Notes under the pieces: generated by a model
Databases searched by the model: none
What the model was told of the DNA's origin: nothing
The model's input: only the letters and a program-made list of their open reading frames with translations
Shown: positions 1 through 56,616 of the stretch, in pieces
How positions within the stretch are numbered: position 1 is the first letter of the stretch
How the letters are laid out: every line of letters starts with the position of its first letter
Made by a program: the position numbers and the translations under genes
From: Hydractinia symbiolongicarpus
Lineage: Eukaryota; Cnidaria; Hydrozoa; Anthoathecata; Hydractiniidae
Direction of reading: 5' to 3'
Assembly (NCBI RefSeq): GCF_029227915.1
Contig: NC_079879.1
Coordinates: 24,258,501-24,322,500, forward strand
Length of the DNA: 64,000 bases

Positions 1-1272
1 TGGTTAACCCGGTCAGCTCGCCTCAGATAAACAGCCCCCTTAATGATACCCGTATTCCGTAGGTCGTGCTAAACCACATGCATAGAAAGGGCAAATGCTA
101 TATAATTTTGTAAACTATGTTTACCACGTGCGCGTATTAACCAATATACTTTGAGATTTCTTCAAGGATGCAGAAAACCTAAATGGCGAAACAACTTGTA
201 AGCAATATATCCAGACGTGCAACATGGTTATTCTGTACAACGCGGTAGACTCAGTAATGTTTATAACAGAAAAACTTTAAAACAAACTTCTGTGGGTTTT
301 TTTAATATCTGACCAAAAAACATTCCTTCTACTTTCAGAAAAACCAATCTAGTATCCAAAAGTCGCTAGATTTGAAGATATAGCCTTTCGTCAAAACGGT
401 AAATAAGACCATCTGTCCTACGGGTGGCGGGAATATAAGAGTTAAACCAAGTTGCGGGAGCCCATTTTTTTAAAAAGGACAGTACAACTAAAAGGGCTTA
501 ATGGTACAGAAGATTGCGTAATAGTATAGCCACAAAGCACTTGTGCCACGATTAAATTGTGAACTTTCACTGAAACCCCAAACAGGAAAATGTACGGAGC
601 GGTTTCCCTGCACCCTGCATTTAACGTCGTTCAACGCAGAATCACCCAACGAAATAAAAACTTGTATCCGCACTCGAAATAAACAGAATGTTTACACTCC
701 AATTATTGCGTTGAGATTTGACACATTGATATTTTCAGGGGCATCTTAAATTAGAAAAGCGCATGTAGAAAAAATGGTATCAAGATTCATACCTTTAGGG
801 AAAAAGGCACGAAAAAGATCAATATAGGATAAAGTTATCTTTTCAAAAAATGTTTTACTGAGAAAATACGGAACAGAAATATATTTTATAAAAAGAAGAA
901 AAAAAGAAACTTCATTCTCAATAACATACCGAAAAGTAAAAAATCATCCTCCAGAATTTGACCCAAATTATTTCAGTTTCTTAATAATTGTCACCGTAAA
1001 AACAGAAATAACTGTTCTGAAATTTTAAGCATCAAGAGAAGTCTATTTTATTCGCGATTTGTTTTATAAAACACAAGTAATAAAAATTAAATGTTGATTT
1101 CAAATTACAAACTTATTATATAATTTATAAATATTTACCATATTACAACAAGACCTGTTCCTAAACGAAGTCTTTAACAACAATGATAGCCAGCACCTTG
1201 ACATTTTCGTGTGTGTGTTTGAATGCAAACAAAATAGATCATAAATATATCTGTTCTCTTTAAAAAAAATGT
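1..1272. other. No gene seen; 3' flank of CLIC
   Basis: AT-rich sequence with only short open frames on both strands and no convincing splice-bounded exon. A tttatt at 1046-1051 reads AATAAA on the minus strand, about 220 bp past the CLIC stop, and could be that gene's poly(A) signal. Confidence 0.4.
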
Positions 1273-4059
1273 TTAATAAAAATGTTTTCTCCAACCCTCA
1301 ATAATAGCATCGTCAGGTGGACACGTGGTGCTGAATGCTGGATCCTCTAAAGCGTCATCCATGTATTTCTTTAGATCTGTAAGATAATCTGGGATTTCAA
1401 AGTTTTTGTACTTTTTTAAAGCAACTTTGACATGTTGCAATTTTGGAAGAATGTCACAATCCGGATGTTTCAACTCATCACCATCTAAAAACTTTCCAGG
1501 TGAGTTTACAGATCCAAGAAAGTTATTTATTTTCTTTAACTCGTCTACCAATGAATTCTGAAGCTTTTCGTCGAGGCTTGGGTCGCGATTTCGCAAGCAA
1601 CCAGAAAATCTAAAGAGAGATTTATATGCGTTATTCTTGTGAAAACAACAAAATTAAACTATATACATCGCAGACATGATTATGAAAACTGTCCATTATA
1701 TACAGAAGAATAAAAAAGAATTGCTTGTTGCAGTTTGACTGTCCTTTGCCGTCTCTTTTTTGTATGTTATTGTCATAAAAATCACAAAGGTATAATTTCG
1801 CGGGTTGGTAATGCGGACTTTTTTTTAAAAGGGATTAAACCTTATATTTTAATACATATCTTATTTATATTATATTTTTTGGTGAAATAAAGGTTAAAAG
1901 GAAAACGTTCAAGTGCAAGAAAATAAATACAGGGGATGTATTTTCGCGAAAGCTAAAAGTAGTCAGCAAAAAATGTTCACCAATAAATTTTGATAGTGTG
2001 TCAGCTTGTTCAATTTAGTAAAGGAAATATACCTTGGAAATAGATTTCCTCCAACTTTGTTTGCCATTTCGTTTTCGCTTTTTAAAACCGGTTCCGGCCA
2101 TTCTTTATCTATGTAGTATGCGATATCGTTAGGGTTGTACACAACATATTCCCCATGTTTTAAAACTGGAACCTTGATGGGAACACCTGCTTCTTGGCAA
2201 AACGTTTTAAATGCTTGTGGGATAGGGTGGAAATGAACAGGAATGTAACTACCAGCTATTTCCTTTAGTTTTAGAATCATCATAATACGATGACTGAATG
2301 GACAATCTCCAACGCCCTTTCCATCTTTGGCATTTGCCTACAAATAAAAAAACACTGCTTTGAAAACACTGATTGGTTGAAAAATTGTGAATGACATTTC
2401 AATTTCAAGTTTTGTCGAGAGCAGAATTATTGCTGGCCCAAAAAAAATTGTGCAAACATAAGGACATTAACATTGGTTATATCATTTGTGGACTCGAGAA
2501 AAGCCACCAACTAAAAGCATGCAAAAAAGTATACTTTCAAACAACATGTGTCTTAGCACTAACAGGTCTTTAGAGAAAGGAAACAAGTTATTGTATACAA
2601 CTTATTCTCCTCATAGAAACAGGGACAAGAGCAATGACATTCTCAGTTTGACAAGGCAAAGTTGAAAGCCTGTTTTTTAGGTGATTTATTGTATTTGCAG
2701 AGAGACTTGTTTTACGTATATACTATATTGCAACAAGAAAGCCATTACATATATCATCGATTCTAATAGTTTTGTTTTATATTGTCAAATCATTTTGTTA
2801 AGTATATAACTAGCATATTTAGAAAGAAAAGAAAAACTTATAGTTAAATATCTTTGTTTTTGTTCTTCATTACCTTTGTCATTTTATACAAAATTGTAAT
2901 TTTAAAATGTATGCATTATAAAACATTTTCGCGTTTTTTTGCCACTTTCCTGAAAGTAAGACTGACATGAAGATCCCTGTAAGTTCATCCCATGCAAAAT
3001 AGCCTAGGGAGCCGAATCAGGAATTAAATTGAATGTTTTTTCATGTATTTTTCTTTCAGTCTGCATCTATATTATTGGGTTTTGATATTTTTTTCTAATT
3101 AAACAATTTTTTAATGAGAAGATAGATAGATAGATGTGTATATTTTACATGGCTAGCCTCACAAATATCGAGGGATATACCCTGTCTATTATTTCCAGGA
3201 GGGGCCATGGCTTAGATGGAGAGTCCTAGAGTATTTAATGCTCATTTTGAGCTAAGAAAAAAGTTATGTTTGATACAAACAAATCTGTTTTATTTTCTAA
3301 TGAAAAGAAAAAAGTCATGTTTGATGTAAACAAATCTGTTTTATTTGTCAAAATTCTAAATATACAGTGAAAAAATTGCACAGAAACCAAAGATTATTTT
3401 AAGCGAAATAGATTTAATCACTCATTCATAATGCTTGAAAAACATATATACATAGCTATATACTCTATGATATCATTTTGTATAACTAAAAGATCAACAG
3501 ACTAATTAACTTTGAACTGTGATGATAATAACATAACACTAATTATTTTTTTTACAGGAAGCTAAATGAATGAAACCCATTAGGGTTATCCTAAAGGTTT
3601 GAATCAGGAAATTATGAAGCTAAGGTTGTGAAAAGAATGTAAAATCCATAAAAAGAAAAAAAGAAGAGCTAGCTACATGAAAAAAAAAACAAAGCTGAAG
3701 AAATAATCACAATGATTTACTTTGTGATTTTGTACATAAATGTCGATAGGATAATTATAATTAACTCATTTCACTTTTTAAAAGCACATTAAAAAAATAA
3801 TGTAAATCTAAAACGTTGTTTAAAACAGGTAAAAATATGGCTTACCCAGGCAGCTGTGTAAAATTATAAAAAGCCAGGATAAAATTCTTGCCTTAAACTT
3901 TAAATGTTTAAAGTCGTGTAAAAATACTTTAGCTCAATTTCAAAAAATGTAAACTATAGCTATAGCTAGCTAGCTAGCAGTTTAAATCTTATAATTAATA
4001 GTACACTATTAAAGACGTAAGAATACCTTTATGTACAACTCAACAGAATCTGTGGCCAT
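1273..4059 (-). CDS. CLIC: Chloride intracellular channel (CLIC) protein, 3 exons
   Basis: CLIC proteins have a GST-like fold and move between soluble and membrane-inserted forms; several have glutaredoxin-like activity. Exons on the minus strand are 4027-4059, 2033-2337 and 1273-1609. All junctions are GT/AG, the phases agree, and they give 224 aa, close to the usual 235-250 aa. The N-terminus MATDSVELYIK followed by GVGDCPFSHRIMM is the CLIC signature with the reactive Cys in CPFS. Exon 2 holds the thioredoxin-like half and ends VGGNLFPR. Exon 3 holds the all-helical half, with KFLDGDELKHPDCDILPKL and a C-terminal FSTTCPPDD, both hallmarks of the family. The 11-codon first exon lies 1.7 kb upstream and supplies the only good start. 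The gene is divergent from OSTM1. Confidence 0.93.
3195..3346. repeat. SINE-like fragment and 51-bp tandem duplication in the CLIC intron
   Basis: At 3236-3262 the string aatgctcattttgagct recurs at about 62166-62182, inside a tRNA-related SINE, so 3195-3262 looks like a relic of the same family. Next to it, a segment of about 40 bp (3257-3300) is repeated with few changes at 3308-3346, a period of 51 bp. Both copies contain acaaatctgttttat or a near match. Confidence 0.5.
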
Positions 4060-4330
4060 ATCCTTTAATGCGTAAAACAGCAAGTAAGTGACCAGCACGC
4101 TCTATGATATCGATTCGATCTGACGAGTAGAACAAGACAAGTGCCTTTCCCACTTTTTCACTACTTCTCCGGAAAACATAAACTAGAACTTAACATATCC
4201 ATAGCGTGAAATGGTGGAGATAATAAAGTTTTAAGGCTAACCTCTCCTTATAAGGAAATATTTTATAAAAATTAACTTCTCTCTTATAATACAACGACGA
4301 TGCAGAGATAAACATAATATTACGGTGAAG
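4060..4330. promoter_or_regulatory. Candidate bidirectional promoter, CLIC / OSTM1
   Basis: The CLIC start codon (4059, minus) and the first OSTM1 ATG (4331, plus) are 271 bp apart. If OSTM1 starts at the second ATG (4403), the gap is 343 bp. Both genes must take core promoter and 5' UTR from this gap unless one has a distant non-coding exon. No clear TATA box could be assigned to either direction. Confidence 0.45.
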
Positions 4331-7300
4331 ATGGCGGAACGAGAAGTGACATATGCCTGCAGGACAAACAGAAAATTTGCTTATGAAATAAAACGTAGTC
4401 GGATGACTTCGCACCCTTTTCTCATTTTTTACGTTGTAATGCATTTTTTAACAAACACTGCTCTTGCAAAAGAGAATAATAGCACCATAATGTCCAATAA
4501 GGTGCTTTCAACACCAGAAGGAAAATCATTTCATGTCCCTTCAAAAAACATTGTCACTACATATTCAAAGCAGGAATTTGACTCTGTACAAGTATTTTCA
4601 AGTGAAAATACTAACGTCATAACGTCATCAAAGAGTTTGGCTTATGATAAATCCTTACATACCTCTCTAATGTCAAAAAATACGAACACAAAATTTTCTA
4701 TGAAAATCCAGACAAGTTTAAATGCAAGTACTTTGATTGTAAAAAATAGCTCATCCACCTCTTTAACTTCTTCTCAAGTACATTCTACTACTGTTAAAAC
4801 AAGAAGTACTAACTTAACATCAAGATTGTTGAAATCAAGCAATGAAGTCTTAATTTCAACTCCATTATGTCCTTCCGTAATATACTCTGGAATATGTACA
4901 CCTGCATTGGTAATATCTACAGTATATTCAATACGCAATGTTACATCTACATCCTATATCACCAAAACTACCAAACTTGCAAGTCTTCCTGTGTTTAGTA
5001 CAAGCATTTTAGAATCATCAATTCAGTCTTCTTATGGCAGTTCTGCCCTGGAAAAAACTTCTATTCATGTAAAGAATTTGTCCACTGCAGCTACAGTGGT
5101 TTTTAGCAGTGCAATTATTATTGTTCCACCTATCCAACAATGTGATGTAGCTATAACAAGATTTTCTGGTGCAATAAGTAATTTAACTGACTGTTTATTG
5201 ATGCATTTGCATCCAATGAGGCCATGTTATAGCTGTTCTGTTTATTATGATGAGTTACAAAACTTGCATACATTGTTATTCACAAAATGCAAAGATGTAC
5301 TTGTAACTGATTTTAATGCTCAATATCAAGTTATACCAAAAATGTTTGAATCCCAGGTTCAAACTTGGAATGCTTTAGGCTGTAAAAGTAAGTATATATA
5401 ATTTAATGTCAGGCATAACGTATGCTTTATTTACTGCCTAAAGGAATACAGTGCAAAAATAAAAGCATGTGAATAAAAAAATTGCAGAACATGTCAGTGC
5501 AAATTTGGATAATTTATACAAATGTAGCAATGTTTCCAACTATTTTGTTTTCTTTTTTAGGAAGAATATTTACACTATGCATAGATTGTATATGTGACAA
5601 GAAAACTACTTAATGTATTAGTTTTCCCTGAGAAGAATTTTTACTATAATTTCTTGTTTCTTATAGAATGTTACTTACAAGATTCGTCAGATCATGATGG
5701 TGCTAGAATGAGTCCTCTTTTTATAGAATTTCTTCATCTTTATAATAAAACAATGGACTGCTTCGCTAATAACACCGTTATGAACACTGTTGTAAGTGAA
5801 TCTTCTGAGGACGCAGAAAAAGTTTTTAGAGGATTTTTTCTTGTAAATCAGGGCTCATCTTTACAATTAATTGTACAAATTTGCATGAAATTGTGTTTCT
5901 TAAAGAATGAGTAAACCACTACCAAATTAAGTAAAAATAATATTCAACTTTGGAGTCAGCCTGCTGTGTATTCTTGTACAGTCACCTATTAAAAATGCTA
6001 AAATCCTTTGAAATTTGAAAATCACAAAAAATGTATTTTTTTGCAGGCTTCCTGACAGGAATATTTAAATTTACATAAAATATACATACTATACATATTA
6101 TAAATTATTACTTTTGCTTTATATTTGTTGTCGATCTTAATTAGTATTTTGATTATTGTATAAATCAACATCAAATAAAAAGAACATAAAATAAAATAAA
6201 AGAAAAAAACCTCTGTCTTCCATGTATAATTTTCATAGTCCTGACAACAAATTAACTCATTAAATTTATTACTATCCTTTATTACAATCCTTTTTAATCT
6301 AAATTTTAACTCTAAAATGATGAGAAAAAGGCCTTTATTTATACCCTCAAATCCTTTAATTTTGAGGAGAAAATTGTGTGTTCATCTTGTACTATAGTAT
6401 TGAGTTTGGTCGTTTTTCGATTTTTTTCCCTAGTAAAAAAGGCTTTTCCATGATAATATATTAAAATATCAAATTTATCCTTAGTTTATTTTTAGCGTTT
6501 ATAGGAGGTAAATGGAGATTTCATGATTTATGTTTTATTTCAATGTTTATATTTTCATTTAAAATTTCATCACTAATTTCTGTATTTTTTCTTAGAATAA
6601 TGTGTTTCATAATGGTTCTAAAATTCAAGGAAAAAACACCACAAAGGTTTGCAGTAACTGTGCGAACCTGTATAAAGAAATGCAGGAGAACTATAAATAT
6701 TATGAGGATAGTGAGGAAGAAACTGGAACAAAATGGTGTGCTGATATAAATGTATCAGTAAGTTGCTTGAAATTGTTGTTATTACAGTAGTGAACCAGCT
6801 AATGCATTTTATGTCGCCAGAGGTGATTATCAATGCAGTTTCATATAAACTTCAAAAAAAATTCACCCATGTATTTTAATCTTCAACACTGACAGTGGAG
6901 TATAAGGTCACTTTTACCAACGTTAAAAGTCAAATTGATGTTGGTTTGAAGGGGCGCTATTGGAGTATTATCTTGACAATAAAAAAAATTGAATTAGAAA
7001 GATTCTGACGTGACAATCATAAGACTCTTCTCCATCCGTTATTTCCCTGGTTTATCTTTTGTATTGATACATCGATAAATTTTAATTTACTTTACATTTG
7101 TTAAAACCTTAAAATTTTAGATCATCCAATTTGTTTGTTAAACACAATCTTATCTATAGGTGAACAACACGCGCCATTTATGGAGTAACACGTACCAGTG
7201 TGGAACAAAGACAAAGGATTTAGAATCTATTATTGCGTTGACATGTTTCTTTTGCTTCTTGCCTATCGTCTTCTATGTCGGTGCCAAGCTGCATTCTGAC

Positions 7301-19900: not shown

Positions 19901-22900
19901 CTAAAACAAAGTTGACATGACATCAAAAATGAATACACACCGGTTGAAAGAAAGAAATGGTAGTTTTGCAAATCAAAAAAGTTATTACCAGTCTTGTATC
20001 GATTTTTTAGTTACATATTATCGCTACCTTGTACAAGTGTTGGTGAAGTCCATTATTTTCGCATAAGAGTTGAGACTCTGTGCAAGTTCCGCATAATGTA
20101 CTGAAATAGTTCCCCATGCAAGATAACTACGCGTGATCTAAATATAAAACAAGTAAAAAACTTTGACTCTGAGCGTGTGGCTTAGAAGTTGATGTGCTGG
20201 CATATCTGTCTTTACAGTTTAGAACACAAAGTCATAAACAATCCTGCAGTTGAAATGGAAGTTCTAAAAGCATTAATTGCGGAGCCTTAATCAAAAGCAG
20301 TATCAATAGGAATGGAGGAGGCTTTTGTGGCTTACTATGGCTTAAATACAATTAAAAATAGATATAATTAAAAATCACCTCCACATCCTCTTCTCCAAAC
20401 GGTAAAACGTTTGCATCTCTTACAAATTCTACAACTCCTGAGAAAAGTAATAGGTACATCAACACTATGGGTGATACTTGCACCATTTGTAGTAAATAGA
20501 ATCATACAGGCCATTAAAGAAATGTACAGAAAAATCACGCTCACCGAATAACCTTTTGTTATTTAGAATGATGGGATAACATATAACTGAGCCATCAGTA
20601 CCTGAAAAAATAACATAAAAATGAGAAATTTAGATCACGATTACATTCCCGTTAATTTTATTTTTAAAGTCTAACCTTTCCATGGAAAGATAGGAAGTTC
20701 CACTTTTCCTACCTTTTTTGTATTTTGTTAAGTCTCCTGTATTTTACAACAAAGCAAACTCACCGACCAAAATTTAGTGTTCAGTATATTAATTACTCAA
20801 AAGAAATATTTACCCTCGGTTCCAGTACCAGAAAGAAACCTGTCATCCTAAAACATAAAATTTAACATAATTTAATTTTGATTTCTCAAAACAACTTTGT
20901 TTGTTATAAGTAAATAGTATTTAATACGTACTCCGAGAATGTCTGTAACAAAGACCATTTCTTTCATACGAGCTACATATGTAGATATGGTAGCACCTGT
21001 CTCAATATCTTGCTTTGGACATGCACTCTCACTAGAAATGTAAAACTTTTAATATGTGGTGTCAAATTCCCTCTACGACTAACGACTAGTTTCTTAATAA
21101 AAAAACTTGAACGTGAACAAAGAAGAAACCTGTGTAAATTGTATACCTGCTCAAACCATCTGAGTAGCCTGTGAGATACTAAAATAATCGTTTACAAATA
21201 TTAGGGAAACGTTTATTGATTTTACAGACAAAAGTATTCTTTCCAAAAGAAATAATTATTTGAGTGTAACAGAAAGTTCTGACCTTTATATTGAAAATAT
21301 ACTATGCTGTTCAAACAATTAGGTGTAAAAAAACGAAGTTCTAACCTTCCCAGAATCATCTAGTAAATATAGGGAAAATCGGCTAGCATGAACAGCTGAA
21401 AAATAAAATCGTACCCGTATGTTTAACATTGAGTAAATTCTACATACAAAAAAGAAAATTAGTATGTTATTTATATACATGTATACCTTGACATATATTT
21501 TTACTTAATTCCAATAAAATTGAATTTTTAGTTTTCTCTTTATGAATTTCTTCAGTTAGACTATCCAGTAGTTTTCTTTTGTCTTTGTGAACACAGAACT
21601 ATAATACATGTAATAAAAAAGAAGGAATAACTTTATGTAGCAAAAAATATCAACATAGAAGCTTCGACACTTGGTGGAGAGGAGAGTACAGTTGATAAAA
21701 GGTATTGGCCTCCCCAATTCGAAAACTGTCGTACGGTTATGAATATTGTAAATGCTTACTTTCCATTTTGATAATGATGGTCTATTATGTTCTTCATCTA
21801 GAAGAAAAAACGTATTGAGATGCAGAATGTATGCTGATATTCTAAAGTGCGATCCAAAAGTAAGTACAATGTGGAATCTAAGAAGCCCCTTCCCTTAGAA
21901 AAGAAGATAAGAATTTTAAAATTAATAAATATAAGTAAATGTAAGTAAAGTATGAACAAGTCTTATCAAAACTAGAAGATGAAACAAAAACTGAAGAATT
22001 TGTTGTTGTATACTCTTGTGAAAACTTTAAACATACAGAACCTAAACTTTACTTATGTCGTTGTAATTATCAGAGAAGCAGTGTCTAAACAAGAAAAGAA
22101 AGAAAAAAAGAACAGAAAACGCCGTTGTAGAGCAAGTTGCCTGATTAATGAAAGATGGAATAAGAAGTACCGCAAATCTTGAAAATATACAAGACCAAAA
22201 AAGTAAAACCTGGAGCAGTAAGACCGAATAGAAGTCCCATGCTGGTTTTAACTGGGGTAGGGAAATGGTAGGATGGTTAAAAAACAACTAAACATTAAAC
22301 TCAAAGAGGGATTTTAGTGCAAATGTATAACGTTAATTCCTTTTAACTGCCCAATAGCAAGTACTATTCATTAAATAAGCAAAATTCTTTTATAGGGGAC
22401 TGCTTACAATCGGAGGAGCGGTTTTAGAATTTCCCCTTTACAGCAGAAGACAGTAATGCAAATAACCAACGACCAACTATCATATTATTTAAAATTATTT
22501 ATCTAAGTATTTGTTATCATTCAACGACCAACGACGACAATCAAGAAAAAGTATTTGTTATCATCCAATGGCCAACGACCAACGACCAACGATGACAATC
22601 AAGAAAAAGTAATTGTTATCATCCAATGGCCAACGACCAACGACCAACGATGACAATCAGGAAAAAGTATTTGTTATCATCCAACGGCCAACGACCAACG
22701 ACCAACGATGACAATCAGGAAAAAGTATTTGTTATCATCCAACGGCCAACGACCAACGACCAACGATGACAATTAGGAAAAAGTATTTGTTATGGTCCAA
22801 CGACCAACTACCAACGAAACGGTTACGAGCAACAAATGGTTACGAGCCAACGGCCAACGACCAACGATAATTATATAAATCTATAAATCCTAGTAGGTGG

Positions 22901-25900
22901 ATAAAACATTTTAAAATTTTAAAATTTCATATTTACTGCAAATTAAATACACAATAATAGCCTGGTGATAAATTGTTTAAAAGGATTCCCGCATAGAATT
23001 TATAGTTAATATTTTTTGTTCTTGTCAAATTCAAGATTAAAATATATCTGCAAGGACAGTCGAATTGATTTCAAATATCAGTTTGTACAGAACGAAAAAT
23101 TTCAATTCTTCTATCCGTCTGTTCTTGAGTGGAAATGTATCTAAACTCAAATGGAAATCTTTAAAGTTAAATAATAAGAACGAAGAAAAAGGCTTTTTTT
23201 AAAATTGCAACAAAATTTTTGAAAAACTTTTTATCTTGTAATTGAAATTAGGAATCCATTGAAAAAATCCGAAAATAAATTATGAAAATGCGAAAATTTC
23301 ATCCGACAAATACACAGAAGATAAGTCGCAAATGAATTTCGAAAATAAATCTTGATCCTTGTTAGCATATCTCCACATAAATTCCGCCATGTAAGATGAA
23401 AAGTGGGATTTTTTTACTCCAAATGATGGTAATGTTGATTTAACTTGCCTCCAGTGTCCTTCAATTTTATTTGTATGATCTCCGTTACAGTTAACAAATT
23501 CAACTGAGTGGTTAACTTTTAAATGTTCAAAATCTAATTCACTTAAAATATCATATGGTTTCCAAAAATCTGAAACTATAGTTGTACCAGGCAGGATCCA
23601 ATTTTTTATTATAGGTATCAGCGTCTCTCTGTCTCTCTTTTCTACCGCTACAAGAAAGTTCTTTCGCGATTCTTCTTCTATACCACCAAAAACCCACTGT
23701 CCATCTACACGATGGCCCCTGTGGTATTTACGCTTTCCAAACTTACTTTCGTCAATTTGAACTCGTACACCTTTACCGCCAATCTTTGATGAATTTTGGA
23801 AGAGTAATACTTCACACGTTTCTCGGCAAAACATATCCCAGTCAACAGCAGTAGAACTTGATATGCACATTTGTTTGGCTATTTGATTTTGATCGATACC
23901 AGTGGTCCACCAATACGTCATTTCAATCACCTCTTCTATCGTCAAATTAGACTTTTCAAACCAGCTACCTTTGCGAATTGACGTTTCAACAAAATGACCA
24001 TTCTTTTGGCAACGCCATCTAATTCCATCTGAACTTTTGCACTTAGACAAGATCATGTCATTGTTACATTTATCGCATTTTCTTTGTTTGATTAACAAAT
24101 TGTTATCAAAACACCACGATAAGGCATTCTCTTTGGTATTCGTGATGTTTGTGATTAAGTATTTGTGTGTTGTAAATGCTGTTTTATCGGATGAGCGGAT
24201 AAAACGATCATAACTGTTATGAGAAGGTCCAAATTGCGTAGACTTGTCATGACTAACACTATTGACACCACATTGTGTCCCCCGGCTTCTTAATCTTTTT
24301 AACGGTGGGTAATCCATGCTATGATTTAATCAGAAATTAATCAACTTCTTTGCAAGTTATTGAAATTATTGTATCAAAGAATATTTGTAGATTTGAAAAA
24401 CGAATAATGAATCGTTAAATTGTAATATAATTATAAAATAATAGAAAATGTACTTACTATGGTCCCTTACTGTAATTTCTCAGGCAGAGTATTTGTCATT
24501 CGCGATACACAGAAAAGCTTATGTCAGATAACGGGACGTTAATGAATTCCCTACATTGCATAATTTTAGCTACTCTTGCAGTGTTAAAAGATTCATCAAA
24601 AACACATGACTTGTCTTCAGAAACTTTTTTTACAATTACTCATATTAATCATACAGAAAATAAGAAAACGTGATTAAATTTAAGCAATACAAATAATAGT
24701 AAAAACATGCTGAACACAACTCAAATGTTACGCAACTTTCCGAACAGTGTTTATACTTTTTCATGTACAAGCAATTTTTTATAAGAAACTGTTGTTATTT
24801 TTCGAGCATTTTTTGCCTCGGCATATCTGTATACAATTTGTCAATCGAGTAAAATAAGTTTTATTAAAATTTACAATTTTAAACCCGATTAACTTTGTTA
24901 TAGCTAACCTATATATTTTGGTGTTGATAAATTTGTAAACTTTTTTATAAGTAAGAACGACTTATTCTATGGATATAGAAAAAGGATTATTTGAAAAATT
25001 TTTGCTAATGAATTTCAAGATTAATAGACTCGATAATCCGATCCGTAATACAAACAGGATGTTTGGCGAGCCTTTTTGTTTCATATTCACTTTCTTGTAA
25101 CCAATTTTTTATTTCGGATGGCAAGTCCCTAAATTCTTTTTTAACAAATACTTTTGATGATTTTGACGACCCAACTGCTCTTACACTAACCAAACGACCA
25201 ATGTCTTTGTTAACAAAGTTTTCTATAAACTTAACAAATTCTTGGGATAGTAAACCGCGAAATCTTTTTGATGTACTTTGTTTGAAAGATCTGTATGTGA
25301 CGAAGGCACCCGGTGTCATTAAAACAGCTTTTTTATATTCATCAGAAGTTGGGGCACGTTTAACTGATGGTGTTTTGCTGGTACTAACCAATTCTGTGAT
25401 ATACTAAAACGAAAAATATTGTCATAAATGAGATGAATAAATGTCTATGAAAAGATAATAAATGCAAATTTGCTGTAACTTAATTATAAAATATTTAAAA
25501 GACTAACTGTGTAAAATAATTCTTTCTGTTCATCAATTGATTCAACATACATTATGGCACGTTCCAATGTTTGCAAGGAAATAGCTTCTGGTAGACATGT
25601 AAATTCAACTTCATTAAAAAGGGCATTATAAAAGTATTCCACTGTGTGTAGAGCGACAGCAACTTTTGGAATTAACTCTGGTTTTTTAGACTTGCTGGTT
25701 GGTCTGCCGTGCAAAAGATCGTTGTTTAGATCGGTCAAAAACTGTGTCTCCATGTTGTCGTACAATCTATACAAATTGGTAAAAAAAAAAATAAAGAGGG
25801 GGAAATAGAATTGAAGAAAAGGAAGAAGAGATTATTTATCATGTCATGTATAAAGTTTAAAATTATTAAAAATCTTCTTACTTTAACGCATTTTCTTCAA

Positions 25901-27843
25901 AATAGAATATTGTATTATCTATGTGTACATAGTTGGCATAAATATCCTTAATATCGATTGTTGTTGAGGATTGTTGGGCGATTTGTTGTTCCTTGGGCAT
26001 CGGACGGTATGAACGAGGCGTTATAATTAAAAATCGGTCCAAAAATCCATTACCTTTATCCATTAAAGACAAAATAAAAGCCATGCTTTTTATTTGTGTA
26101 GCACCTTAAAAAATAAAGAATTTAATACGTGTGCATATTTTTAAAAACCTTTTTGTAATCACAAGAATTGATTTTGTTTAAACGTATATTCATCAGCCTT
26201 TATGGTGTATATTTTTGCTTCACTTTTTGGAAGGAGCTAAAAAGTTAGATTACGAACCAACTAACCGCATCTGCGTATACCGTAAATAACGGATTAAGGT
26301 TCCGGGGCGCTTACTTACAAATATTTCCCTAACCCCGGGACACTTATTCGACAGGGGGCGTATTGAGCACGGGGCGCTTAATCCGTCATTTACGGTATGC
26401 GTTGCATAAGGAGGAAAGAGAAAAGAATAAATAAAAAATAATTACCTAATATGCACAATGCGCAATTTTCAGGTATATATCTGTTATTTTCAGTACTGAA
26501 TTGAATAGACACATTTTCTCCACTAAAAATCTTCGATAGAATCTCCATATCCCCAGTGTAATTCTCATCGTTTTTTTTCAATATTTTGTACAAGTACTCC
26601 TGTATTTCGGCATTAACAATGTATGTACATTTTCTTGTACAGAGGCACTTTGTCAAGCCAGATGTGGTGGTGTTAGATATAATGTCTGTATCTTCTTGAA
26701 TAGCCTTTAATGGTTGATTAACTGCCATCTTAATAGCGGGCGACTTTCCTGTAGACGGCTGCCCAACAAACAAGAAAAATGTGTTAAGGTTAATGCTATA
26801 ACCATTTCTTATTTCGATCGAACCGTGATTTTTAGAGGTCAAGTAATTAGCTGTAGTTATTACGGAAGCAAGAACATATCCAATGTTTGTACCTGCAGCT
26901 GTTGCTTTATTGTTAAGGTATGTAAACAATTGTTCGGATAGAACGTTTTCATACTTGACGTCATGATTAATAAATCTTGAGTTTAATTCGGCCCAAACTT
27001 CTTCAGGTTGTGAATTAATAATTGATTTTGAAGAATACATTATAAAAGATATGGGCGATAGATACGCGAAGCCGTTTGTTACAAGAATGACTTTTTTAAT
27101 AAACGGTCGTTATTTTTAACGTCGGATACGATGTCGTGACATTGCGCGAAGCAACGAATTAAAAGACGCGTAGGCGCTAACGTGATAGTGTTGAAGACGT
27201 TGCATATAGCGTTATTTTGGTTAATGATTTTACAAAAGTTGGTCGTTGGTTGTATTAAATTTAATTTACTATTTGAAGGGGATATTCTAAAGTTTAGCCC
27301 AATCGGAACTTTACAGCAAAACATCGTTGTATTAACAAGGCTCCTAAAAGAGTTAATAACCTGAATTAGCATTTTCCTTTCCAGTTATTTTACATTTTCT
27401 GATTAGCCACCTTTCAATTTGTTCTTGGCTGACATTTTTCATAACAAATTCTTCCACAAGGTAGGGATTCTCTAACAGATATCCTTGTAGGTCATTTTCT
27501 GAAAAAACATAACACAGTTAACCTCGAGTAAACACTTTTTTAGTGTCAAAGAGTTTGAAAAACAAGAAAAAAATAACAGGGGCTATAATAATGATAAACA
27601 TATAAGAGCAAAAAAATACGTTTTATGAAAATAAACCAGTACACATATACCTTCTAGAGAATCTGCAGAAGTACATCTTGGATTCAATTCACCTACATCA
27701 ATCTGCTTTATGCTCAGCCTTCCATTCGATAATGAAAACCTTTTCAAGTTCTGAACACCCACGTTTATCTTTGTTTTCGAGACGTAGGCAAGAGGCAAAG
27801 AAGGCAAACGACGTCCAGCAACTTGACATGAAGGGCAAGACAT
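13955..27843 (-). CDS. PDE10A-like: PDE10-like dual-GAF cyclic nucleotide phosphodiesterase, 26 exons
   Basis: Hydrolyses cAMP/cGMP. Exons in order: 27651-27843, 27361-27498, 21760-21797, 21487-21598, 21346-21395, 21147-21178, 20932-21031, 20814-20847, 20545-20601, 20379-20437, 20028-20137, 19849-19900, 19583-19707, 19309-19470, 18964-19019, 18469-18527, 17928-18070, 17179-17268, 16919-17069, 16188-16343, 15721-15771, 15379-15490, 15022-15133, 14877-14952, 14421-14509, 13955-14114. Total 2,517 nt (about 838 aa). In-frame stops precede the ATG. The N-terminal helix (ENPYLVEEFVMKNVS...IERWLIRK) and GAF-A (FVTDILGDDRF) are PDE10-like; GAF-B has KGIPGHV and DAYADPNF. The catalytic domain keeps YHTWDHAF, CHDLDHRA, the late Asp (TVSDLCA) and the invariant Gln (NQIGF). 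Junctions 21/22 and 23/24 each break frame by one base at the obvious acceptor; in-frame alternatives lie 8-10 nt downstream. Intron 2 hosts the Merlin-like element. Confidence 0.88.
16640..16716 (-). repeat. tRNA-derived SINE head or tRNA pseudogene
   Basis: On the minus strand the sequence has a Pol III A-box-like tagtctagtgg and a B-box-like ggatcgaatcc at tRNA spacing, closed by a tgcca/tggca pairing. The anticodon loop lacks the normal U33, so it is not a working tRNA. It lies in a PDE10 intron. Confidence 0.6.
16759..16840. repeat. Fold-back repeat
   Basis: The outer arms acatataggtgaa and ttcacctatatgt enclose an inner perfect 12-bp stem (tatttcattctc / gagaatgaaata, loop tatt). It could be a small MITE or an extruding hairpin within a PDE10 intron. 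Confidence 0.6.
17615..17655. repeat. Perfect 19-bp palindrome with 3-bp loop
   Basis: The arms 17615-17633 and 17637-17655 (caatttccatgatgcgaat and its inverse) are perfectly complementary around tta. It is in the intron between the exons at 17928 and 17179. It could be a recent inverted duplication, a MITE core or a hairpin RNA. Confidence 0.75.
22407..22414. repeat. Left target-site duplication of the Merlin-like element
   Basis: The 8-bp caatcgga is repeated exactly, in the same orientation, at 27300-27307. Eight base pairs is within the range known for Merlin elements (8-9 bp). Confidence 0.8.
22507..22870. repeat. 58-bp minisatellite in the left subterminal region
   Basis: Units begin with gt(a)tttgttatcat at 22507, 22551, 22609, 22667, 22725 and 22783. 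The first unit is 44 bp and the rest are 58 bp; the last decays after 22800. Each unit contains two or three copies of ccaacgac, the same motif found in the inner part of both terminal inverted repeats. Confidence 0.9.
23280..24317 (-). CDS. Merlin / IS1595 (ISXO2)-type DDE transposase
   Basis: A single-exon gene of 345 aa, intact from an ATG. An N-terminal zinc ribbon lies at residues 81-103 (CDKC ... WRC). An HTH-like segment (residues about 126-160) precedes the catalytic ISXO2 domain. The likely DDE triad is Asp189 in QIDESKFGKRKYHRG, Asp250 in IVSDFWKPYD and Glu286 in NKIEGHWRQVK. VFGGIEEESRKNF and VNHSVEFVN are further family signatures. It cuts and pastes the surrounding element by acting on its inverted repeats. 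The gene follows the P-loop gene on the same strand after 690 bp. No frameshift or stop is seen. Confidence 0.92.
   Translation of the reverse strand: MDYPPLKRLRSRGTQCGVNSVSHDKSTQFGPSHNSYDRFIRSSDKTAFTTHKYLITNITNTKENALSWCFDNNLLIKQRKCDKCNNDMILSKCKSSDGIRWRCQKNGHFVETSIRKGSWFEKSNLTIEEVIEMTYWWTTGIDQNQIAKQMCISSSTAVDWDMFCRETCEVLLFQNSSKIGGKGVRVQIDESKFGKRKYHRGHRVDGQWVFGGIEEESRKNFLVAVEKRDRETLIPIIKNWILPGTTIVSDFWKPYDILSELDFEHLKVNHSVEFVNCNGDHTNKIEGHWRQVKSTLPSFGVKKSHFSSYMAEFMWRYANKDQDLFSKFICDLSSVYLSDEIFAFS
24318..25004. other. Spacer between the two transposon genes
   Basis: AT-rich, with no open frame worth calling. It should contain the 3' end of the P-loop gene and the promoter of the transposase. Confidence 0.4.
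25005..27040 (-). CDS. Spliced P-loop NTPase gene of the Merlin-like element, 4 exons
   Basis: Exons 26446-27040, 25882-26104, 25508-25766 and 25005-25403 join in phase (GT/AG) to 491 aa. Residues 93-100 are a Walker A motif (GQPSTGKS) after a hydrophobic strand. YIVNAEIQEYL (140-150) is a possible Walker B/sensor strand with an acidic residue. GNGFLDRFLIITPR (about 216-229) looks like the Arg-containing segment seen after the core in DUF3987-type NTPases, which are linked to primase/helicase proteins of bacterial mobile elements. The C-terminal 130 residues are basic and may be a DNA-binding winged helix. Family assignment is from motif order only. All four exons are intact, which argues for selection or recent insertion. 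Intron 1 contains a small MITE. Confidence 0.75.
26277..26398. mobile_element. 122-bp MITE nested in intron 1 of the P-loop gene
   Basis: The ends ataccgtaaataacggatta and its inverse (one mismatch) flank 122 bp with ggggcgc repeats inside. A gcgt direct repeat sits at 26273-26276 and 26399-26402, a likely 4-bp target duplication. It has no coding capacity. Confidence 0.75.
27300..27307. repeat. Right target-site duplication of the Merlin-like element
   Basis: An exact copy of caatcgga, matching 22407-22414. The PDE10 intron sequence resumes here and reaches the exon 2 donor at 27360. Confidence 0.8.
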
Positions 27844-54532: not shown

Positions 54533-56616
54533 AGGATCATCATCATCATCATCATTCTCGGCTTAACGTCCGTTTTCCATGCTAGCATGGGTTGGACGGG
54601 GTATATTAATGACCCTCTTCCAATCTGATCTAGACTGTGTTAGATCTAAACTCAACTTCCTCTCTATTAAGTCTGTCCTTATAACCTCCTGCCAAGTCTT
54701 TCTCGGTCTGCCTCTGGGCTTTGCCCCAGGAACTATCAAGTCTCTACACTTTCTTACCCAATTATCCTCCTCCATTCTTTCCAAGTGCCCCAGCCAATTC
54801 AATCTTCTTATCTGGATAACATCTTTAATTCTACAGAGACTTAGCCTGCTTCTTAGCTCATCTGAACTCTTTCTGTCTCTCAGACTGGCATTACACATCC
54901 ACCTAACCATTCTCATATCATTCCTTTCTAAACGGTCAAGATCTTCCTGCTTCACTGCCCATGTCTCACTACCGTACAACATAACACTTCTTACACAGGC
55001 CTCATACAACCTACCTTTTACCTCAATTGACAGAACTCTGCTAGTCAATAAAGGAAGTAACTCTCTAAACTTTTTCCAAGCAGAACCTATCCTGCAAGTA
55101 ACACTTCTTCCAACACCCCCTTCACTGCCCAACATATCACCTAAGTAACAGAAGTTCTTAACTATCTCTAACGAGCCACTGTTGTACATCATTAAAGCTG
55201 GAAATACTTCATTCTCTATAATCTCACCTTTGCAACGCTTGCATACAAACTGTATGCCAGCTCTTAACCTTCCACTAATACTACTGCACTTCTTATGTAC
55301 CCAATGCTTGCAAGTCTGACAAAAAATTGAGTTACTACCAACCCCTTTCCTGCAAACTCCACAAGGCCACTTTCCAACTACAAGGTCACACTTGGCTGCA
55401 ATGCTACTTATCATGACTTTAGACTTTGCTGTGTTTACCTTCAGCCCTTTCTCTTCTAGTCCTTTCTTCCACTTCTCAAACTTTTCAACTAATTCTTCCA
55501 TCGACTCTGCTATGAGTACCAAATCATCTGCATACAATAACTCCCATGGACAACCTGTTCTGAACTCCATCGACAGCGCTTCTAAGACTAGAATAAACAA
55601 CAAAGGACTAAGTACAGAACCCTGATGTACACCAACATTTACACTAAATTCATCACTAAGTGAATCGTTAATCCTGACACGACTTCTAGCATTGCTGTAC
55701 ATAGACTGAACCATCGTAACTAGCCACTCATCCACACCTAATTTTCTCATAGCCCACCAAATAACTTTACGTGGCACTCTATCAAAAGCTTTCTCTAAAT
55801 CTACAAAGGCAAAATAGAGATTCTTTCTCTTTCCTAAATACTTTTCCTGAAGCTGTCTGAGTAAAAATATTGCATCTGTAGTGCCACGCCCTGGAACAAA
55901 ACCAAATTGCATCTTATCTATATCAATTCTTTCTCTAAGTAACTTATCAATCACTCTTTCAATAACTTTCATTACTTGATCAACCAACTTCAAACCTCTA
56001 TAGTTACCCCTTTCTAATGCATCACCCTTGCCCTTGAAACAATTCACTATTACACTCGACTGCCACTCACTCGGAATAGCACCATCCTTTATAATCTGGT
56101 TAGCAAGACTTGTAATAAGCTCAACTCCAATCCAATATCCAGATGCTTTTACCATCTCTGCAACAATACCTGATACTCCTGCAGCCTTGCCAATCTTCAT
56201 TTTCCTAATAGCCTCCACTACCCATTCTGTCTTGATCTGCATGGCTGGCCCTTCTACGACATCATCATCAGACAAATTATCCTCGTCCCAATCAAACTCA
56301 GTGTTAAGCAACCTCTGATAATGATTCTTCCAAGCTACCCTTTTCTCCTCCTCTGTGCTAGCCAAAACACCTTCATCATTACGTATACACTTCTCACCTA
56401 CAATATCTTGATTAGTCTTCTTCATTTGCTTTGCTATCTTGAATACCTCATTGCGCTGGTCTTCCCTTCCTTATTTCTGCTCCCAAATCCATAGCCTCCA
56501 TGCACACCTCTATAACCTTCAGATGACTTCCCAACATGACCATTAAAGTCGCCGCCCACCATGACAAGTTCAGTGTCTCCAAACTTTGATGTGATACATA
56601 GGTGAATATTTATCAT
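54533..56616 (-). mobile_element. RTE-like LINE, 5'-truncated and internally deleted
   Basis: On the minus strand, an endonuclease fragment (56434-56616; VGGDFNGHVGKSSEGYRG, HGGYGFGSRNKEG) runs straight into the start of the reverse transcriptase part in another frame. The rest of the endonuclease and the linker are missing. The element ends in a short (atg)n tail (54533-54556), typical of RTE-type 3' ends. Confidence 0.85.
54563..56425 (-). pseudogene. Reverse transcriptase of the RTE-like LINE (open fragment)
   Basis: A 620-codon open frame. It shows the RT palm order: GKAAGVSGIVAEMVKASG, NYRGLKLVDQVMKV, MQFGFVPGRGTTDAIF, FAFVDLEKAFDRVPR, VHQGSVLSPLLFILVLE and the catalytic YADD in ELLYADDLVLIAES. 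A PHD/zinc-knuckle-like insert (CGVCRKGVGS...CQTCKHWVHKKC...CKRC) lies between RT and the C-terminal part (RRLNWLGHLERM, KPRGRPRKTW). The RT itself has no stop, but without an intact endonuclease the copy cannot retrotranspose alone. Confidence 0.88.

Follow-up and report, generated by a model that had tools for sequence, protein, structure and literature searches.

A Merlin transposon of Hydractinia symbiolongicarpus carries a spliced DUF3987 ATPase gene within the same ends as its transposase

The window analysed here is a stretch of 64,000 nucleotides from the Hydractinia symbiolongicarpus genome (contig NC_079879.1, positions 24,258,501 to 24,322,500), and its positions 22415-27299 are occupied by a 4885-bp Merlin transposon, of the IS1595-type DDE (Asp-Asp-Glu) group, that holds two intact genes. 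Both genes are on the minus strand and lie within the same ends, the gene for a P-loop ATPase first and the transposase gene after it; no third frame of at least 150 amino acids was found between the ends. The element is bordered by a target site duplication of 8 bp, CAATCGGA, whose left copy (22407..22414) and right copy (27300..27307) match exactly. The terminal inverted repeat at the transposase-side end (GGAGCGGTTTTAGAATTTCCCC; 22415..22436, plus strand) and that at the ATPase-side end (read inward, GGCTAAACTTTAGAATATCCCC; 27278..27299, minus strand) are identical at 15 of their 22 terminal bases, an imperfect match that was nevertheless reached by only 65 of 400,000 random pairs of 22-mers drawn from the window. 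Termini of the form 5'-GG...CC-3' are present on this element and on the ends of a second family (family B, see below).

The transposase-side end also carries an iterated subterminal motif, CCAACGACCAAC, with 16 matches (at most one mismatch) between 22466 and 22865 on the plus strand, and a tandem array of a 58-bp unit repeated 5.1 times (22522-22817) overlaps this cluster. A single inverted copy of the motif is found at the ATPase-side end (27238..27249, minus strand), at an offset of 50 bases compared with 51 at the array end. The window total is therefore 17 copies at this mismatch level, all inside the element, against 0.11 expected by chance.

The transposase gene (23280..24317, minus strand) is intact and encodes 345 amino acids, with a match to the DDE_Tnp_IS1595 domain (PF12762, E 1.6e-18); this domain, with its DDE triad, places the element in the Merlin superfamily. 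Residues D189, D250 and E286 are unchanged in 12 of 12 aligned sequences and are taken as the putative catalytic triad. The N-terminal region contains Cys and His residues that we take to be zinc-ribbon-like, and little was gained from a genome search with this half of the protein. Four loci on contig C1 (29764730, 29375198, 27403358 and 27530172) match transposase residues ~33-112 only, at 33-36% identity, with no catalytic part found at any of them, and are perhaps a separate gene family that has the transposase N-terminal domain.

The second gene is intact, as the initial annotation had claimed when it described a four-exon nucleoside triphosphatase beside the transposase. It encodes a 491-amino-acid DUF3987 P-loop ATPase in four exons (26446..27040, 25882..26104, 25508..25766 and 25005..25403, all minus strand) separated by three GT-AG introns, the third of which (25404..25507, minus strand) is in phase 0. 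The Walker A motif GQPSTGKS (residues 93-100) is encoded in exon 1 (26741..26764, minus strand), and its GxPxTGKS pattern is invariant in all four sequences of the ATPase alignment. A public gene model (P0001, LOC130626079 isoform X2) is 96% identical to the window ATPase, except that 17 residues are missing from it where exons 1 and 2 join. Intron 1 contains a palindromic repeat (26274..26401) with 25-nt arms that are 92% complementary; pieces similar to it occur at several other places in the genome (element query 3890-3984), and it is probably a miniature inverted-repeat transposable element that was nested in the element before the element spread.

The ATPase matches PF13148 (DUF3987) with an E value of 5.9e-20, and all three full ATPase proteins scored above the curated cut-off of 27 bits (72.2, 55.9 and 67.9 bits). 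DUF3987 was the sole Pfam match in these three proteins at E <= 0.1, with no primase domain and no Helicase_C or DEAD match. A DNA helicase family of PHROGs was matched by four of the four ATPase homologues scanned, and primase families were matched as well; in PMC5862659 a helicase function in mobile elements is predicted for DUF3987. In a structure model of one ATPase (P0004), residues 382-451, which correspond to exon 4, show the winged-helix order of helices and strands, with ten-residue means of the predicted local distance difference test between 59 and 90. The fold matches of this low-confidence model, to MCM chains (~267-360) and to small winged-helix regulators (~378-469), are no more than suggestive; across the ATPase core the model is too poor for missing matches to other folds to be informative. 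PDB sequence searches with the ATPase alignments and NCBIfam gave nothing useful, and no useful match was obtained from IMG/VR (both protein alignments) or from GTDB contigs (ATPase alignment). In a search of 5.8 billion proteins, which needed shared 5-residue words and scored the best candidates, at least 766 relatives of the transposase and at least 4 of the ATPase were found; the ATPase of contig L073 (see below) was not among them, and absence of the ATPase from corals or starfish is not implied. The PF13148 profile found nothing in the Hydractinia genome, presumably because exons were matched singly.

The element is mobile, its copies are recent, and insertion makes duplications of 8 bp. 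A DNA search of the Hydractinia genome (480.9 Mb, 76 contigs) for the family of the window element (family A) gave 65 matches, for which the best 40 of 92 candidates were scored. At least five places, the window included, match element positions 1-4885 at 100% (rounded), and all five full-length copies encode both proteins intact; their ATPases differ from that of the window by 0, 1, 1, 3 and 3 amino acids, and their transposases are identical. Perfect 8-bp duplications flank 9 of the 11 family A copies with both ends read, at 8 distinct sites. Several full copies have their own duplication, an outcome that the initial annotation had named as support, but two on contig C3 (L004 and L005) share flanks, which reflects duplication of host DNA; no other full copies do so, and segmental duplication as the only source of the copies was rejected. 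The two family A copies without a duplication are C12:8576435-8580965 and a pair of fragments, contig C57 (element positions 1-4320) and C5:30731436-30732000 (positions 4321-4885), which has the appearance of a single copy that the assembly broke in two, although no 8 bases are common to its outer flanks.

The boundaries of the element were fixed by empty sites. When the flanks of the copy at C13:7143207-7148091 (L003) were joined with one duplication, all 40 places scored (the best 40 of 82 candidates) had the resulting 320 bases without a single change; these are exact empty sites, and they fix the element ends to the base, where the initial annotation had put them. An empty version of the window's own insertion site was not found in this assembly, and the two flanking half-matches at that site overlap by exactly the 8 duplicated bases. 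The highly repeated sequence in which the C13 copy sits looks coding by eye, with a Cys/His-rich stretch; it may be a mobile element of a different type that is very young and present in many copies.

One copy was found that has both ends and a duplication (GATGTATG) without an ATPase gene, a case that had been named in advance as evidence against the ATPase belonging to the element. It is only 1807 bp long (C6:19330091-19331897), and it reads as a deletion derivative because its transposase is broken.

The two genes are also found together in diverged lineages of the same genome. Protein searches, collapsed by hand into loci with near-identical copies counted apart although not independent, identified 49 loci for the transposase and 44 for the ATPase. 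An ATPase locus lies within 15 kb of 30 of the 49 transposase loci, compared with 0.13 expected under random placement, and the ATPase gene as a chance neighbour was rejected on these counts; 28 of these 30 pairs are on the same strand with the ATPase upstream. The remaining 19 transposase loci have no ATPase nearby. Conversely, 31 of the 44 ATPase loci adjoin a transposase, and two of the 13 without one nearby carry a family B end; given these counts and the four database matches, the gene was not seen to be widespread outside such elements. An ATPase gene was present within 15 kb of 22 of the 27 PF12762 matches, and the five unpaired ones (C7:22387351, C6:19331121, C9:6627426, C7:20981834 and C5:14062144) are each partial or interrupted by stops. 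Both genes are kept in lineages whose ATPases are 40-61% identical.

Family B is represented by copies at C6:22264593-22270458 and C15:9281925-9287784, read except for the middle 0.66 kb of each, with ends GGCTAGACTTTAGAATACCACC and GGAGCGACTTTAGAATACCCCC and with duplications in both (8 and 9 bp, the one 9-bp case). Its transposase is 65% identical to that of the window over 285 positions and its ATPase 49% over 355 positions. The plan of its ends is like that of the window element: close to the transposase-side end there is an array of a 66-bp unit repeated 5.3 times, in which ACCTACG motifs occur, and the ATPase-side end has a related motif nearby. Both genes are present in two further lineages, C and D, for which one element end was found (in D), and at C12:15311619-15316249, where the genes are divergent and one end was found, on the transposase side and of the GGCTA type. 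An ATPase match at C8:13580849, in a 418-amino-acid frame, was rejected as a relic that runs into unrelated sequence and has lost Walker A. The ATPase exon 1 relic on L069 (2873-4129, minus strand), with Walker A lost, runs in frame into sequence that by eye resembles the end of a PIF1-type helicase.

The same gene pair occurs outside this genome. When genome contigs were scanned with the transposase alignment, a single locus was obtained, the 4876-bp contig L073 (DDLT01000139.1), which is titled as a contig of a Lentisphaeria metagenome-assembled genome. It contains a transposase (3817-4836, plus strand; PF12762, 8e-20) that is 53% identical to that of the window over the aligned part, and an ATPase (from 2949, minus strand; PF13148, 9.4e-21, 74.8 bits) that is 33% identical over the aligned part, in the divergent order also seen at C12:15311619-15316249. 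The L073 ATPase frame reads QKEIFVE up to a GTAAGC donor and resumes with FLGELI after a TTTTTAG acceptor, and intron 3 of the window gene splits QKELFYT/YITELV at the same position and phase; because of this common intron, L073 is likely of eukaryotic origin. An end-like sequence at position 35 is followed by a 75-bp tandem array, and the other element end is missing. A second end-like sequence, GGAGAAATTGCAGAATACCC, at position 1580 lies inside the ATPase intron (0.065 such matches expected by shuffling) and may be a nested end or a duplicated terminus. No ATPase was found on L076, a 3-kb contig that is the second with PF12762 in the same metagenome-assembled genome, and an Rfam scan of L073 gave nothing useful. 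L073 and the diverged lineages were the grounds for rejecting a host gene captured once, and with the full copies they bear out the initial proposal of a Merlin subtype with an accessory ATPase.

The two proteins have diverged together. Transposase and ATPase identities across lineages were correlated (Pearson 0.93, 15 non-independent pairs), and with five lineages the coefficient was 0.88; among the 120 permutations, 3 gave a value as high, one of them being the observed order itself. The proportions of nonsynonymous (pN) and synonymous (pS) differences between the window and lineages B, C, D and L073 were 0.32-0.47 and 0.77-0.81 for the ATPase and 0.24-0.34 and 0.79-0.91 for the transposase; for a less diverged copy on C9 they were 0.05 and 0.14 (ATPase) and 0.04 and 0.06 (transposase). 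We read this as purifying selection on both proteins; in the older comparisons the synonymous sites have reached saturation. In a midpoint-rooted tree of 30 transposases, built without a Repbase reference Merlin set, a single clade, to which Clytia also belongs, holds six of the seven rows taken as ATPase-bearing; P0020 is counted among these six for its near-identity to family B and because the length of its record agrees with contig C11. The closest grouping of the L073 transposase is with Acropora (96/97), and both lie in the other deep clade, apart from the Hydractinia lineages. If all other rows are counted as lacking the ATPase, the label changes three times on the tree, and at least two of these changes are forced by supported branches.

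The best explanation, to which we give a probability of roughly 70%, is that this is an autonomous cut-and-paste Merlin transposon in which an AAA+-type ATPase of the DUF3987 family, ending in a winged helix, has been kept for a very long time as a working component. By homology, the transposase would recognise the ~22-bp ends and catalyse excision and insertion. The ATPase may form a ring-shaped DNA motor, a weaker surmise, with the winged helix as its DNA contact and the array of iterated ACC(A/T)ACG motifs at one end as a candidate loading site. ATP would then be used to remodel or unwind the element DNA, either for assembly of the transposase complex or for completion of the intermediate, a role that would be helicase-like and not that of a Tn7-type target selector.

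The main rival is such a selector, in which the ATPase, like TnsC, IstB or MuB, would bind target DNA and recruit or license the transposase, with an effect on target choice or immunity. AAA+-type ATPases beside DDE transposases act in this way in Tn7, Mu and IS21, and an asymmetric end with many motif copies resembles the ends of Tn7 and Mu in general plan. However, the sequence affinity of the ATPase is to DUF3987 and to phage helicase and primase families, and the target duplications, a small sample, have no obvious common sequence by eye; the low-confidence P0004 model cannot decide. We regard this role as unlikely. It is quite improbable that the ATPase is a passenger or self-defence gene acting outside transposition, for example by countering host silencing or amplifying excised DNA. 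The C6 deletion derivative, whose ends are intact and flanked by a duplication although it lacks the ATPase, fits such a gene, and large insertion sequences of prokaryotes are known to carry passenger genes (PMC10045372), but retention of the ATPase across its 40-61% identity range, co-divergence and L073 point to a constant role tied to the transposase.

A further doubt concerns breadth: L073 could be a close cnidarian relative or a host segment, which would restrict the pairing to hydrozoans. Its bacterial title, missing end and second end-like motif in the intron are on the side of this possibility, which we nonetheless hold to be very unlikely, as the L073 transposase belongs with Acropora in a deep clade away from the Hydractinia lineages. 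That the ATPase gene is part of a different mobile element, nested in a Merlin copy that then multiplied, would account for the near-identical family A copies alone and is scarcely credible, given the same pairing with similar end motifs in family B, the pairing in the C12 locus and lineages C and D (with one-sided ends in C12 and D) and the intron position common to L073.

Beyond the two-gene transposon itself, we advance tentatively, at somewhat less than an even chance, that one old branch of the animal Merlin elements, active to this day, depends on a phage- or plasmid-type helicase ATPase, combining DDE transposition with an ATP-driven motor, and that this partnership predates the split between hydrozoan and coral- or echinoderm-type Merlin lineages and survived reorganisation of the genes between tandem and divergent order. 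If true, this would be a new eukaryotic case of a DDE transposase working with an ATP motor, in a cnidarian that has intact recent copies and is kept in laboratories, and DUF3987, a domain of unknown function, would gain a concrete and testable partner. It would also predict that a second gene may have gone unannotated in Merlin elements of other cnidarians and of echinoderms.

Elsewhere in the window, a 635-amino-acid open frame (54563-56470, minus strand) has a reverse transcriptase domain and a PHD finger and looks like a LINE-type (long interspersed nuclear element) element with a PHD finger. A Pfam scan of eight window open reading frames gave no phosphodiesterase match, which is not a test of PDE10 as the host gene, in whose intron 2 the initial annotation had placed the insertion.

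The usual description of a Merlin element includes no gene but that of the transposase. The window element is like the rest of the superfamily in its PF12762 DDE transposase, its GG...CC termini and its 8-9-bp duplications, and unlike it in adding a spliced DUF3987 ATPase gene, such that five of five full copies are not transposase-only. With Tn7, whose logic the initial annotation had invoked, and with Mu and IS21 it has in common the general logic of two proteins and, for Tn7 and Mu, an end with multiple motif copies. No sequence similarity to these systems was established; the window element has only two long frames, and its duplications are 8 bp long, against 5 bp in Tn7. Nothing was found that supports the comparison with Tn7. 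Across eukaryotes, Merlin elements have 8-9-bp duplications, imperfect ends and tandem repeats, with a terminal CC expected (main text of PMC8101967); there, an antisense open reading frame of one family was judged to be due to chance, and no accessory gene was seen, the words ATPase, helicase, DUF, second ORF and accessory being absent from that main text. The paper on the Hydractinia genome (PMC11067881) likewise mentions neither Merlin nor DUF3987 in its main text. No description of a Merlin element with an accessory gene or DUF3987 was found in the open-access literature searched, with Repbase outside the search, and relative to that literature the novelty of a two-gene Merlin with an accessory ATPase holds. 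Prokaryotic DUF3987 primase-helicases of mobile elements and phages share the DUF3987 domain and the PHROGs helicase and primase families with the window ATPase, in which, unlike them, no primase domain was found and which has introns and a DDE transposase as its partner. The nearest precedents are KolobokH, Kolobok-1_CCri and AcademH, eukaryotic DDE transposons with a DNA-motor accessory protein: PMC9587614 describes Kolobok lineages with accessory proteins that include a RecQ helicase, AcademH is covered in PMC10045372 and PMC10799480, and in a fungal survey the domains linked with AcademH, KolobokH and Helitron include DEAD and Helicase_C. The helicases of KolobokH and AcademH are of the RecQ or DEAD/Helicase_C type, whereas the ATPase of the window element is a DUF3987 protein that accompanies a transposase of a different superfamily.
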